From Hyphomicrobiales bacterium (GTDB taxonomy: Bacteria > Pseudomonadota > Alphaproteobacteria > Rhizobiales > Aestuariivirgaceae), in NCBI GenBank assembly GCA_025362535.1, contig JANYGE010000054.1:1-11422 (forward strand): DNA of 11,422 bases. Direction: 5' to 3'. Both the position numbers and the translations under genes were made by a program. The notes beneath the pieces are model-generated. The model worked only from the letters and a program-made list of their open reading frames with translations, ran no database searches and had not been told where the DNA came from. Position 1 is the stretch's first letter. Every line of letters starts with the position of its first letter. This document shows, one piece after another, positions 6,898 through 11,216 of the stretch.

Positions 6898-6974
6898 TGG
6901 TACCACCACCCCGGCTCGAACGGGGGACCTCTAGATCCACAATCTAGCGCTCTAACCAACTGAGCTATGGCGGC
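6898..6974 (-). tRNA. tRNA-His (anticodon GTG)
   Basis: A complete cloverleaf of 77 bases including the encoded CCA reads on the minus strand. It has a 7-bp acceptor stem (two G-U pairs), a D-arm GCTC/GAGC, an anticodon stem CTAGA/TCTAG with loop TTGTGGA, and a T-arm CCCCG/CGGGG with loop TTCGAGC. The anticodon GTG reads histidine codons. The discriminator is A73 and the base before position 1 is T, so the usual G-1:C73 pair of tRNA-His is absent. That is the known alphaproteobacterial form, recognised by a matching atypical histidyl-tRNA synthetase. Confidence 0.96.
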
Positions 6975-6984
6975 AACAGGCCCG

Positions 6985-7013
6985 CTATTAGCGGCAGAGA
7001 AGAGCAAATTCAA
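6985..7013 (-). promoter_or_regulatory. Sigma70-type promoter of tRNA-His
   Basis: On the minus strand, TTGAAT (7013-7008) and TAATAG (6990-6985) are separated by exactly 17 bases. The -10 ends ten bases before the mature tRNA 5' end, so the primary transcript would carry a leader of only a few bases for RNase P to remove. A GC-rich stretch (CGGGCC) follows the -10 and could act as a stringent-type discriminator. Confidence 0.6.
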
Positions 7014-7078
7014 CCGCAAATCAGCCAATAAGGCACTTTTCTCAACAGAGAGGCCCCTAGCGCATTCGTTTACCTTGA

Positions 7079-7094
7079 TTAACAATTCCTTAAC
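7079..7094 (+). promoter_or_regulatory. CtrA box (TTAA-N7-TTAAC) upstream of the sensor kinase
   Basis: TTAACAATTCCTTAAC is a perfect match to the full CtrA recognition sequence TTAA-N7-TTAAC known from Caulobacter and other alphaproteobacteria. It can also be read as two TTAAC half-sites separated by six bases. It lies 53 bases before the kinase ATG, in the 173-base space shared with the divergent tRNA-His gene, about 66 bases from the tRNA -35. At this distance CtrA could activate the kinase promoter by binding near its -35. Confidence 0.65.
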
Positions 7095-7112
7095 GAAAGG
7101 TAGACGGGACGG

Positions 7113-7127
7113 TTAAAAATTGATTAG
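7113..7127 (+). promoter_or_regulatory. Second, imperfect CtrA-like box
   Basis: TTAA (7113-7116), seven bases and TTAG (7124-7127) repeat the CtrA box layout with one mismatch in the core TTAA. It starts exactly 34 bases after the first box and 20 bases before the kinase ATG. In that place a bound protein would more likely block than help transcription. AT-richness of the region makes a chance match possible. Confidence 0.35.
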
Positions 7128-7147
7128 TTGTTTCCAGATGTTTGCAA

Positions 7148-9529
7148 ATGGACCCGGTTTTGACAAAAGTACCTCCCACCCTCGAAGATCTGCGCCAAGC
7201 ACCCCAAGCGGCTTGGCTGTGGGATGGTGCGCGCGGACGCATTGTGTGGGCCAATCAAGCTGGCATTAAATTGTTTGATGGACAATCAATGTTTGATTTG
7301 ATTGACCGGCCTTTTGATGCGCGTGAAGCGGGCATTGAAACGATTACAGACCTCACCCGCAGTTTGCAGCGCGGTGAAATCAAACAAGCGCTTTTGAGTT
7401 TTCCATCTGTTGGTTTGCTGGTGCCGATTGAGTGCAAGTGCAATCTGCACAGCTTGGCAGATGGCCGGGCTGGGCTTCTGGTGGTGGAGATGCAGGCTGA
7501 AGTCGCTGCGCTCGAAGCTTCGCCAGGGTTTATGGCAATGGCTTTTCAGCATATGCCAGTTGCTGTTGGATTTGTGGATGAGGATGGTCGGTTCTCAAAC
7601 TTGAATGCGGCTGCAGCATCGTTATTTTCAGCGAACCGTCTTTCCGCTTTGCTCAATCAACCACTGCGCGCCGATGATATTTTGAAACGCATGCAGAGCT
7701 CAGCATTGGTCAGTCAGGTTGAAACCATCAACGGCGTTTTGGGCGTGCGTGAAGTGCGAATGACGCTGCAAAGGCTTCCCGAAGCCACTGGGCCATTCGC
7801 GATGATGCTGCTGGATGATGTAACCGAGCGGCGCGCCCTTGAACGTCAAATGGCTACACCATTGCAAAGCCCGGCCCAAGACGCACTGGCTTTTGAAAAT
7901 CTAGCAAAAGCATTGAATGACACCATCAAGCAAGACAGTGTTGTAAAAGCGGCCAAGCTTGAAGTGCCCAAACAAGTAATTGCTGCGGCAATCGTCCCCA
8001 AGCCTGCGGCTATGCATATTCCGAAAACAATGCTCAATGCGCTGGAGCAAACCGGCGCTGCTATCGCGATCTCGAAAGATGGCAAGCCGGCTTTTGTAAG
8101 CAAGAAAGCCGCCACTTTACTTGGCTATGAGAAGGCTGCTGATCTCTTTCAAGACGAGACGTTCTGGACCTCGCTCAAACAGATTAAAACATCATCGACT
8201 AAAGTCGATGTGCAAGTTGGCACGGGCCAGAGCTTTCAACTCGCTGCAAAGACAACGAATATTCCTTGGCTTTCAGGGCCTGCTCAGCAAATCGTCTTTG
8301 AGGCCCTAAAAAGTGAAAAGCCCAAAGAGCTTGCAAAGCCTAAGCCAGTAGAATCCGCCGCCGTGCTTGTGCCCGTTGAAACAAGTGTTGCGCCGAGCAC
8401 GGTTGAAATCGCCGCTGATGATGATTTGAAACGTATTCTCGATATTGCTTCAGATGGTATTGTAACCTTGGACCGCGAAGGCAGAGTGTTGAGTTTCAGT
8501 GCTGGGGCCGAGGCTATGTTTGGTTACCGCACAGCTGAAGTTCTGAACAAGCCTCTGGTCGATTTTTTTGCGCCTGAGAGCCATAAATTATTCACGGATT
8601 ATCTGGCTGGCTTGGAAGGGCCTGGGCTTGCAGCAGTTTTTAATGATGGCCGCGAGATGCTGGGCATTGTGAAGCAGGGCGGCACAGTGCCGATGTTTAT
8701 CACCTTGGGCCGGATGTCATCGGGTGGATCACGCGCCGCCTATGCCGTTGTGCTGCGTGACATTACGACGTGGAAGCGCACTGAAAAAGAACTGCGTGAA
8801 GCAAAGGATGTGGCCGAAGAAGCCAGCCGTCAGAAATCAGAATTTCTGGCGCGGATCAGCCATGAACTGCGCACGCCACTGAATGCCATTATCGGCTTTT
8901 CCGAAGTGATGCGGATGGGCCAGTTTGGTGAAATTAAAAATGCGAAATACCGTGATTATATTGATGATATTCACACCAGTGGTGGGCATCTCTTATCGCT
9001 GATCAATGATCTGCTTGATCTTTCGAAAATTGAAGCCGGAAAACTCGAACTTAATTTCACCGCTGTGAGTGTGGCTGATGCCGCCGAACATGCAATACGT
9101 CTGTTGCAAGAGGTGGCCACGCGCGGGCGAGTTCTGGTGCGGAAATCCTTGCCCGACAATCTGCCGCGTGTGGTGGCTGATCTTCGTGCTTTGCGTCAAG
9201 TGATGTTGAATGTTCTGTCTAATGCCATAAAATTCACCGATCCTGGTGGGCAGGTTATTATCTCGGCGCAACTCACCCGTGATGGTGAATTGGCACTCAG
9301 TATAAAAGATACTGGCATTGGGATGAATACGGCGCAAATCAAAGACGCTTTGGAACCCTTCAAGCGCGTGGAAACGGCTGGACGCGAAACGCAAGGGACT
9401 GGCCTTGGCCTTTCCCTGACAAAAGCCTTGGTTGAGGCCAACCGCGCTAAATTCAGCCTATCGAGTGAATCAGGTCGTGGCACTTTGATCGAAATTCTGT
9501 TTCCAACGACACGGGTTTTGGCTGAATAA
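7148..9529 (+). CDS. Multi-PAS cytoplasmic sensor histidine kinase, PdhS/PleC/DivJ-like
   Basis: The 793-residue protein has no membrane segment. Residues ~10-110, ~130-235 and ~290-385 look like divergent PAS domains (WLWDGARGRIVWANQAG; VGFVDEDGRFSNLNAAA; IAISKDGKPAFVSKKA). An Ala/Lys/Pro linker separates the second and third. A clear PAS domain spans ~424-540 (SDGIVTLDREGRVLSFSAGAEAMFGY, ending in VVLRDIT). The HisKA domain carries the phosphorylated His572 in SHELRTPLNAIIGFSE. The ATPase domain shows the N box (NVLSNAIKF, ~688), G1 DTGIGM (~721) and G2 GTGLGLS (~750). The kinase core and the ending FPTTRVLAE strongly recall PdhS of Brucella and rhizobia, which controls DivK phosphorylation and cell division polarity, although those proteins are longer. 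ATG 7148 was preferred to the TTG at 7142; neither has a strong ribosome binding site. No response regulator is adjacent, as is usual for this family. A CtrA box lies upstream. Confidence 0.9.
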   Translation: MDPVLTKVPPTLEDLRQAPQAAWLWDGARGRIVWANQAGIKLFDGQSMFDLIDRPFDAREAGIETITDLTRSLQRGEIKQALLSFPSVGLLVPIECKCNLHSLADGRAGLLVVEMQAEVAALEASPGFMAMAFQHMPVAVGFVDEDGRFSNLNAAAASLFSANRLSALLNQPLRADDILKRMQSSALVSQVETINGVLGVREVRMTLQRLPEATGPFAMMLLDDVTERRALERQMATPLQSPAQDALAFENLAKALNDTIKQDSVVKAAKLEVPKQVIAAAIVPKPAAMHIPKTMLNALEQTGAAIAISKDGKPAFVSKKAATLLGYEKAADLFQDETFWTSLKQIKTSSTKVDVQVGTGQSFQLAAKTTNIPWLSGPAQQIVFEALKSEKPKELAKPKPVESAAVLVPVETSVAPSTVEIAADDDLKRILDIASDGIVTLDREGRVLSFSAGAEAMFGYRTAEVLNKPLVDFFAPESHKLFTDYLAGLEGPGLAAVFNDGREMLGIVKQGGTVPMFITLGRMSSGGSRAAYAVVLRDITTWKRTEKELREAKDVAEEASRQKSEFLARISHELRTPLNAIIGFSEVMRMGQFGEIKNAKYRDYIDDIHTSGGHLLSLINDLLDLSKIEAGKLELNFTAVSVADAAEHAIRLLQEVATRGRVLVRKSLPDNLPRVVADLRALRQVMLNVLSNAIKFTDPGGQVIISAQLTRDGELALSIKDTGIGMNTAQIKDALEPFKRVETAGRETQGTGLGLSLTKALVEANRAKFSLSSESGRGTLIEILFPTTRVLAE

Positions 9530-9572: not shown

Positions 9573-11216
9573 ATGAATAAATTTATTTCGCGTCCAATTC
9601 CCATTATCGCTGTGCTGGTCTGCATTATTTTGAGTGGTTGGATATTTTATCTGCCGACCAAAATTGCCAAGACTATAAAGCTCACTTTGCAGGAGCAAAC
9701 CGGACGCGCCATTACAATGGGCAGCACTGGCTATAGTTTTTCGCCGCAATTTGGGATCGCAATTCAGGATGTGACGGTGGCTGGAACAGCCTCACTCAAT
9801 GAACCCATAGTTCATGCTGAGACTGTTTTGATCCCCCTTTCGGTGGTGCAGTTTTTTACGGGGCAAGCTACGGCGCAAACTCTTCTTGTTGACGGTGCTG
9901 ATTTCCACGTTGCCTTTGATGGTGTTGGCCATAGCAATGCTTTTGAAGGCCAGAGCCCGAAACCTACTCCGCCGCTGCATCTCCAGCTCAGCAATTCCAG
10001 TTTTCATTATTTCGATGAGCGCAGTAATGATCAGTTTAACTTTGATCACATATCGGGCCTTGCCGATTTTTCGAGTGACGGTGAAATCAGCAGCTCTGGC
10101 AGCGCTGTGGTGAAGGGGCAGTTTATCACATTCGATGCCACACTTGCTTCGCTTGAGCGGGCTTTTGGCGATGGCTCGCCGCTTGATCTCACCGTTGAAG
10201 GTGTTGCAAGTTCCTTTTCATTTTCGGGGCGGATTGCAACGGCGAAGCGATTGAATCTCGCAGGGCAGGCCGAGATGAGTTCCACCGATGCCCCACGGCT
10301 TTCAAAATGGTTGGGGGCTGGTGCTTCAGGATTGGCCGAAATTAAAAATATCGCGTTGAATGGGGCCTTGGATTCCGATGGTCCGGTTATATTGTTGAAG
10401 GATGCTCATCTGAAATTGGGCGACATGACAGCCAAGGGCGAGGTTTCATTTTCCAACGCGGGCGAGCGTCCGAATATCACCGCAGCTCTTGGCTTTGATC
10501 ATTTGGATTTCTCATCGTTAAATCTGCAAACTGGTGAAGGCTGGAGCGATAAGCCGATTGATTTTTCGGGCCTTGGCGCACTTGATATGCAGTTTCGGCT
10601 TTCAACAAATTCGCTGCACTATAATGGGCTGAAAACCGGAGTGGCCACCGTTGAAGGCACGCTCAAGGATCGTGTTCTCACTGCCACAGTGAAATCGGAC
10701 GATCTGGCGGGTGGGGCTTCTCAATTTGATGTGGGATTAGATGCCACGCAATTGCCGCCAAAGCTGAAGCTTGATGTATCCTTAGCCAATGTTGCGGCCA
10801 AGCCTGCACTTGCTGCGTTGATCAACCAGAGCTTTTTATCTGGTGCGCTCACGCTGGACTCGCATCTCACGGCCACGGGCAATAGCCAGGCTGAATTGAT
10901 TTCCACATTGAGTGGCGATGCCACCGCCTCAGTTGAAGGCGGCACTGTTTCGGGTGCCGAACTCAGCACGCTCGCTAAAGAGCCTATGCAAGGGTGGAAT
11001 GGTGGGCAAACGCCAAACCTTAAAGGCCAAGCGCAGTTCAGTTTGACTGAAGGGGTGGCCAAGCTTGGTGAAAATCAACTTGATGCTGCGGGCGTTTCAC
11101 TGCACAGTGAAGGCGATATTGATCTGTTGCGGAAATCGCTGGACCTGCAAACCGGGCCGGATGTAAAAGTGAAAATTCAGGGGCCATGGGCCAAGCCCAC
11201 GCTTACGCCGCAATGA
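9573..11216 (+). CDS. AsmA-family protein with N-terminal membrane anchor
   Basis: The 547-residue protein begins with a short cytoplasmic segment and one hydrophobic helix (residues ~9-29, IPIIAVLVCIILSGWIFYL). An AsmA-like N-terminal block with GYSFSPQFGIAIQDVTVAG follows. The long beta-rich body consists of repeated 'ldl-g-l---d' strands. The C-terminal ~110 residues (LSGDATASVEGGTVSGAELSTLA to KIQGPWAKPTLTP) match the AsmA C-terminal domain. It should sit in the inner membrane with its body in the periplasm. Larger AsmA-like proteins (TamB, YhdP) are thought to carry phospholipid to the outer membrane; whether this short member does so is unknown. It follows the kinase after 43 bases and precedes moaE by nine, suggesting one transcription unit. 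The small stem-loop before it has no T-run and is not a terminator. Confidence 0.87.
   Translation: MNKFISRPIPIIAVLVCIILSGWIFYLPTKIAKTIKLTLQEQTGRAITMGSTGYSFSPQFGIAIQDVTVAGTASLNEPIVHAETVLIPLSVVQFFTGQATAQTLLVDGADFHVAFDGVGHSNAFEGQSPKPTPPLHLQLSNSSFHYFDERSNDQFNFDHISGLADFSSDGEISSSGSAVVKGQFITFDATLASLERAFGDGSPLDLTVEGVASSFSFSGRIATAKRLNLAGQAEMSSTDAPRLSKWLGAGASGLAEIKNIALNGALDSDGPVILLKDAHLKLGDMTAKGEVSFSNAGERPNITAALGFDHLDFSSLNLQTGEGWSDKPIDFSGLGALDMQFRLSTNSLHYNGLKTGVATVEGTLKDRVLTATVKSDDLAGGASQFDVGLDATQLPPKLKLDVSLANVAAKPALAALINQSFLSGALTLDSHLTATGNSQAELISTLSGDATASVEGGTVSGAELSTLAKEPMQGWNGGQTPNLKGQAQFSLTEGVAKLGENQLDAAGVSLHSEGDIDLLRKSLDLQTGPDVKVKIQGPWAKPTLTPQ

Follow-up and report, generated by a model that had tools for sequence, protein, structure and literature searches.

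The 11,422-nucleotide stretch of DNA analysed here, called the window, makes up contig C386 of a draft genome of 2.80 Mb and 469 contigs. It carries a gene for a PdhS-like histidine kinase, followed on the same strand by genes for an AsmA-family protein and for MoaE (Table 1). Because the kinase gene lies on the plus strand and a tRNA-His gene flanks the gap before it on the minus strand, this gap is a divergent intergenic region, and it holds a sequence that matches the full CtrA-binding motif TTAA-N7-TTAAC.

Table 1. Features of the window, and two strict CtrA boxes elsewhere in the same genome
Feature	Position	Strand	Basis or remark
tRNA-His (gtg)	6898-6974	-	tRNA call
Divergent intergenic region, tRNA-His (-) / kinase (+)	6975-7147	.	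173 bp
Strict CtrA box TTAA-N7-TTAAC, TTAACAATTCCTTAAC	7079-7094	+	Half-sites 7079-7082 and 7090-7094; 9/9 fixed bases match
Promoter core TTAA(C/G)-N6-T(G/A/T)GAC, kept in genus	7090-7105	+	Downstream half-site 11 bp before -35-like TAGAC
-35-like TAGAC	7101-7105	+	Part of promoter core
Putative -10-like ATTAGT	7123-7128	+	17 bp after TAGAC; by eye
PdhS-like histidine kinase, 793 aa (PAS, HisKA, HATPase_c)	7148-9529	+	Pfam; ATG 7148 or TTG 7142
AsmA-family protein	9573-11216	+	43 bp after kinase
moaE, PF02391	11226-11422	+	Cut by window end
Strict CtrA box, gcrA/argD divergent gap	G000:C337:1972-1987 (L089)		Pattern match
Strict CtrA box, 313-bp hemE/maf gap	G000:C400:11670-11686 (L093)		Pattern match

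The domains that Pfam assigns to the kinase are those of the class formed by PdhS, PdhS1 and CbrA. As described in PMC3577659, Agrobacterium tumefaciens PdhS1, Brucella abortus PdhS and Sinorhizobium meliloti CbrA are large proteins that lack predicted membrane segments, unlike PdhS2. A simple hydropathy test of the window protein likewise found no segment as hydrophobic as a typical membrane helix (highest 19-residue value, 1.24), but at about 85 kDa, estimated from its length, the protein falls short of the size of over 100 kDa used for the class (PMC3577659). Its top NCBIfam model is PdhS, at 455 bits over residues 426 to 795 and so far under the equivalog cut-off of 2000, and the N-terminal half lies outside the stretch matched by that model. 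Given this grouping and these scores, we call the protein PdhS-like and of the soluble type, and do not file it as PdhS. Among the order-level matches listed, open frames ran from 721 to 1784 aa, some of them ended by contig ends. When up to six of the best first-look candidates per genome were scored, 113 of 160 genomes had a match at E <= 1e-80, each of them exactly one, as would be expected of orthologues present in single copy.

Among 21 same-genus loci that extend 500 bp or more past the kinase, that of the window included, AsmA was detected directly downstream in 4, in a test that a diverged AsmA could escape. Any shared control of AsmA and MoaE would therefore be specific to certain lineages, and the original prediction that CtrA sets their level together with that of the kinase shrinks to a lineage matter at most.

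What had been claimed for the box itself holds: all nine fixed bases are matched, within a 173-bp gap and 53 bp before the kinase ATG (47 bp before the in-frame TTG). It is the single strict match in the window, where 0.04 are expected and where 8 of 200 whole-window shuffles produced at least one. Dinucleotide shuffles of the gap, which is 57% AT, yielded a strict box on either strand in 93 of 20,000 rounds (about 0.5%). The rarity first quoted, one match per 262,000 positions, is correct for equal base use but overstated for so AT-rich a gap. A search of the same 173 bp for CcrM sites (GANTC) found none.

The downstream half of the box belongs to a promoter core that is kept in the genus. 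In 27 of 37 same-genus orthologues the distance from the start of a TTAA to T(GAT)G(AC)CG is exactly 11 bp, and the next commonest offset accounts for 4. Conservation extends to bases outside the search pattern: in 30 same-genus promoters picked by the shape of this core, the G after the core is kept in 28, and each base of an AAA block and of the TTG that follows it is kept in at least 70%. The -10-like element was assigned by eye, and in some orthologues it reads TTTAAT, TTTATT or ATTTAT; a consensus sigma-70 scan of the kinase promoter returned no promoter-like sites, including none at ATTAGT. As a candidate for a genome-wide promoter class, the pattern TTAAC-N6-T(G/T)GAC was rejected. It has 2 matches in the window's own genome against 11 for the reversed pattern, so no such class is shown, and the TAGAC of the window is unmatched by it.

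If the -35-like and -10-like elements are correctly placed, transcription would start near 7135 and the box would lie at about -56 to -41. In Caulobacter, half motifs are reported to activate when near the -35 element, where full TTAA-N7-TTAA motifs also lie, and to repress when over the -10 element; the podJ P1 promoter has a full motif with an N6 spacer at -49 (PMC4287350). We infer that the box of the window occupies an activator-type place, and activation would be the likelier sign of CtrA control because of the geometry of the box relative to the -35-like element.

Within the genus, boxes were sought up to 200 bp before the start of 37 kinase orthologues, including that of the window. The strict box was found in 1 of the 37, the window's own, and in none of the 36 others over those 200 bp. 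With one mismatch allowed, boxes appeared in 19 of 37, that is, in the window and in 18 of the 36 others, the remaining 18 having none; 60 rounds of shuffling gave 1.8 (sd 1.3, maximum 5), and the counts for nine other spacers ran from 1 to 12. These 19 boxes do not share one position. Six stand at the promoter place of the window's box, namely its own and one-mismatch boxes in five others (G036, G022, G020, G013 and G027); nine genomes have in common a TTAAG..GTAAA box 26 to 40 bp before the start; and the remaining four lie elsewhere. This TTAAG..GTAAA variant is near the start codon, and in most of the nine genomes it stands after TTTATT or TCTATT, which by eye could be a -10 element, an arrangement that would suit repression.

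Both half-sites had been expected to be kept in close relatives, and this expectation failed. Besides the strict count of 1 in 37, an upstream half-site with at least three of its four bases was present at the window's place in 6 of 30 aligned same-genus promoters, a figure equalled at the offset of -20 (6 of 30) and approached at -7 and -8 (5 each). Special conservation of the upstream half-site at this place was rejected, since it does not rise above other offsets. With the core kept and the upstream TTAA not specially so, it appears that an older promoter with a half-site was completed to the strict box in the lineage of the window.

In the genomes G023 and G010, the palindrome CCTTTGGTTAACCAAAGG encloses the conserved TTAAC element, and near-copies of it occur in G005 and G026 (loci L014, L015, L016 and L017). 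This subgroup differs from its relatives at the TTAAC element and may possibly answer to a different regulator.

The absence of the strict box from all 36 same-genus relatives also bears on the suggestion that the window's copy is a chance match in AT-rich DNA, with an order-wide signal that is real for other lineages. We consider this unlikely. Shuffles of the same gap rarely yield such a box (about 0.5%), the box stands in exact register with the conserved promoter core, and near boxes occupy the same place in five relatives.

Across the order, outside the genus, 109 kinase matches were found, of which four at contig ends or on short stretches (G159, G059, G182 and G185) were dropped, leaving 105 promoters from 32 families in which boxes were sought up to 300 bp from the first possible start. 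Strict boxes were present before 16 of the 105, compared with a shuffle mean of 0.12 (maximum 1 in 40 rounds), 0 to 3 for other spacers and 0 to 1 for eight permuted motifs. Boxes with at most one mismatch, here called near boxes, were present before 47, compared with a shuffle mean of 4.2 (maximum 7), 5 to 17 for other spacers and 3 to 14 for the eight permuted motifs. Farther upstream of the same loci, there were 0 strict and 0 near boxes among 105 between -600 and -300, and 0 and 1, respectively, between -900 and -600. The exact box is missing upstream of the other orthologues within the genus, an absence that the original prediction had counted against itself, but the kind of site is present across the order.

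Genomes from the same family are not independent of one another, which makes the count by family the more reliable figure. Of the 32 families, 8 have a strict box, 18 a near box and 14 no near box. The 25 families with at least two genomes divide into seven in which every genome is positive (f11, f18, f23, f26, f39, f42 and f49; 27/27 genomes), eleven in which every genome is negative (f5, f7, f14, f20, f22, f28, f34, f37, f41, f44 and f48; 0/39) and seven that are mixed (f13, f16, f21, f27, f33, f40 and f43; near box in 16/32). In three orthologues of family f49 (L262 in G172, L264 in G118 and L266 in G147), two to three CtrA boxes precede the kinase in steps of 11 bp, and tRNA-His is still upstream of the kinase.

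Promoters of other genes served as controls, with 30 loci listed per gene among 61 genomes searched. The FAH query matched 57 of the 61 genomes, and its 30 listed promoters had neither strict nor near boxes; those of msrB had no strict and one near box, in a set in which 5 of the 30 reading frames held stops. The gcrA promoters, intended as a positive control because gcrA is a CtrA target, had 2 strict and 7 near boxes among 30 listed, so that even an expected CtrA target is only partly matched by the pattern.

The survey helps to weigh a second reading of the promoter, in which the working element is a single half-site with the core TTAA(C/G)-N6-TGGAC, bound by CtrA or by another factor, and the upstream TTAA is there by chance. 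This is possible, though we would not expect it, and as it partly overlaps with the explanation that we prefer, the odds of the two do not sum to one. The fixed 11-bp register in 27 of 37 orthologues, the few promoters that keep the upstream half-site, the activating half motifs of Caulobacter (PMC4287350) and the strict boxes that gap shuffles alone can yield (93 of 20,000) all fit a lone half-site; full boxes are nevertheless enriched across the order, with 16 strict among 105, and in five other same-genus orthologues a full box with one mismatch occupies the corresponding place.

Placed as it is between tRNA-His and the kinase, the box could instead serve the divergent tRNA gene, but this is most improbable. 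By eye, 19 of 37 same-genus loci have tRNA-His some 740 to 830 bp away from the kinase; of the 19 strict or one-mismatch boxes within 200 bp of the kinase, 11 belong to loci with such a distant tRNA-His. In the order, tRNA-His lies within 900 bp upstream in 14 of 105 loci, yet near boxes precede the kinase in 47, and boxes all but vanish in the two more distant intervals. Other sequences were noticed between the two genes. A phasin gene (PF09361; L019:812-1279, minus strand) lies there in G002, and the 173-bp gap of the window is too small for one. Several same-genus loci have an inverted repeat, TTGTGC..TGCAACAT..ATGTTGCA..GCACAA, in this interval; our guess is that it may be the operator of a granule regulator.

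The genome encodes other key parts of the circuit. CtrA, whose absence the original prediction had named as fatal to it, is present on contig C12 (NCBIfam NF045991, 419.5 bits against a cut-off of 350), and its receiver domain can be aligned with that of the CtrA structure 4qpj. DivK is encoded on C58 and is 75% identical to a Caulobacter DivK query sequence; the 462-aa receiver-bearing frame beside divK is PleD-like by place and size only. GcrA is on C337, with a Pfam score of 170.6 bits (cut-off 26.9) and an NCBIfam score of 165.8 bits, the latter under its cut-off of 280.

A further OmpR-type regulator on C325 also has CtrA as its top NCBIfam model, at 78.5 bits and so below the cut-off of 350. 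It was rejected as CtrA: its sequence and family scores are those of a relative, the true CtrA being on C12, and we take it to be FtcR/Rem-like. The existence of this second regulator leaves room for the idea that a CtrA-like paralogue, this one for instance, binds the site before the kinase. We give that idea very little weight, for the genome has a true CtrA and the order-wide motif is exactly the consensus TTAA-N7-TTAAC reported from CtrA ChIP-seq in a stalked budding bacterium (PMC7200025).

In the whole genome, the strict pattern has 31 matches (14 on the plus and 17 on the minus strand), or 23 places after overlapping strand pairs are merged. Varying the spacer from N3 to N12 gave 10, 1, 6, 17, 31, 8, 7, 2, 3 and 12 matches, so that N7 stands out with 31 against 1 to 17 for the nine others. 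The pattern read backwards has 24 + 22 = 46 matches, more than the 31 of the real box; we rely on the spacer spectrum because the backwards pattern is built of different words (AATT for TTAA). By mechanical ORF calling, 18 of the 22 strict places outside the window are intergenic. Among them is the box between gcrA and argD (Table 1), the same arrangement as in S. meliloti, where a CtrA motif is reported at gcrA divergent from argD (PMC3616915). Further strict boxes lie in the dnaG/rpoD gap, in the gap before a gene for a B12-dependent ribonucleotide reductase and in the gap before a CtrA-like regulator gene. In S. meliloti a CtrA motif also precedes rpoD, and rpoD is bound by CtrA in Brucella (PMC3616915).

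A separate observation concerns the strict box in the hemE/maf gap, which is a candidate origin site. In Caulobacter, hemE borders the replication origin.

Computation directly shows the box and where it lies, that ctrA, divK and gcrA are present, and that boxes, identified by consensus matching, are enriched upstream of kinase orthologues. From these, we think it probable that the box of the window functions in the kinase promoter as a binding site for CtrA and forms part of a DivK/CtrA feedback loop. Phosphorylated CtrA would bind the pair of half-sites, with 6 bp between their end and the -35-like TAGAC downstream. The downstream half-site would be the older, genus-conserved element, set 11 bp (one turn of the helix) from the -35 element, and the second half-site, one turn farther up, would complete the full box in the window's lineage. 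The PdhS-like kinase would in turn act on DivK, which, in the pathway described in the literature, alters the phosphorylation of CtrA through DivL, CckA and ChpT, and the loop would be closed. Since similar words precede the kinase gene in many related families, CtrA probably tunes the level of a kinase by which it is itself controlled. The core of the CtrA feedback interpretation offered originally is thus probably right: CtrA and DivK are encoded, the top NCBIfam model of the kinase is PdhS and boxes are enriched across the order, but the strict box is not kept in the genus.

Loops of this kind are known. In S. meliloti the cbrA promoter is bound in CtrA ChIP-Seq, with an effect of CtrA seen by lacZ fusions and not by microarray, and CtrA directly activates divJ (PMC4433202). 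The locus described here would share with these a CtrA site before a gene for a DivK-pathway kinase and the resulting feedback loop, likewise in the Hyphomicrobiales. It differs in that the S. meliloti genes were studied by ChIP-Seq and lacZ fusions (PMC4433202) and the site of the window by sequence analysis; our kinase is likened to CbrA by class. As cbrA and divJ are already reported to be under CtrA control there (PMC4433202), the loop would be a new instance of known wiring.

In A. tumefaciens, the pdhS1 promoter, which has a predicted CtrA site, stood at 119% of wild type in a pdhS2 mutant and at 90% in a divK mutant, changes that are small, opposite to those of the ctrA promoter and a hint of repression (PMC7003649). 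Both this gene and that of the window encode soluble kinases of the PdhS class and have a predicted CtrA site, but the hint in A. tumefaciens is of repression (PMC7003649), whereas the box of the window sits upstream of the -35-like element, as is typical of activation. A similar contrast exists within the genus, between the element upstream of the -35 in the window's group and the TTAAG..GTAAA box near the start codon in nine other genomes. One tentative reading is that the link between CtrA and a soluble PdhS-type kinase is old in the Hyphomicrobiales, present in many families and absent from others, that the site moves between an activator-type place upstream and one near the start site, and that the sign of the feedback may thereby have flipped between lineages. 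As part of that reading, such a flip in CtrA-DivK feedback may have occurred even within one genus.

Brilli et al. proposed a shift of CtrA control in most Rhizobiales, away from divK and onto divJ and/or pleC (PMC2877005). PdhS has no occurrences in the main text of that paper (PMC2877005), and the present survey follows one orthologue group across 32 families, controlled by other spacers, shuffles and other genes. Our literature search found no paper naming both Aestuariivirga and CtrA. The new part of this work is the survey of where the link between CtrA and the kinase is kept, lost or moved. It extends wiring known from rhizobia to a genus rich in uncultured members, and across the order it records a CtrA site before one kinase gene, retained by some families but absent from others. 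The kinase promoter thereby offers a testable case of a cell-cycle feedback loop rewired at the promoter level, with its proteins unchanged.
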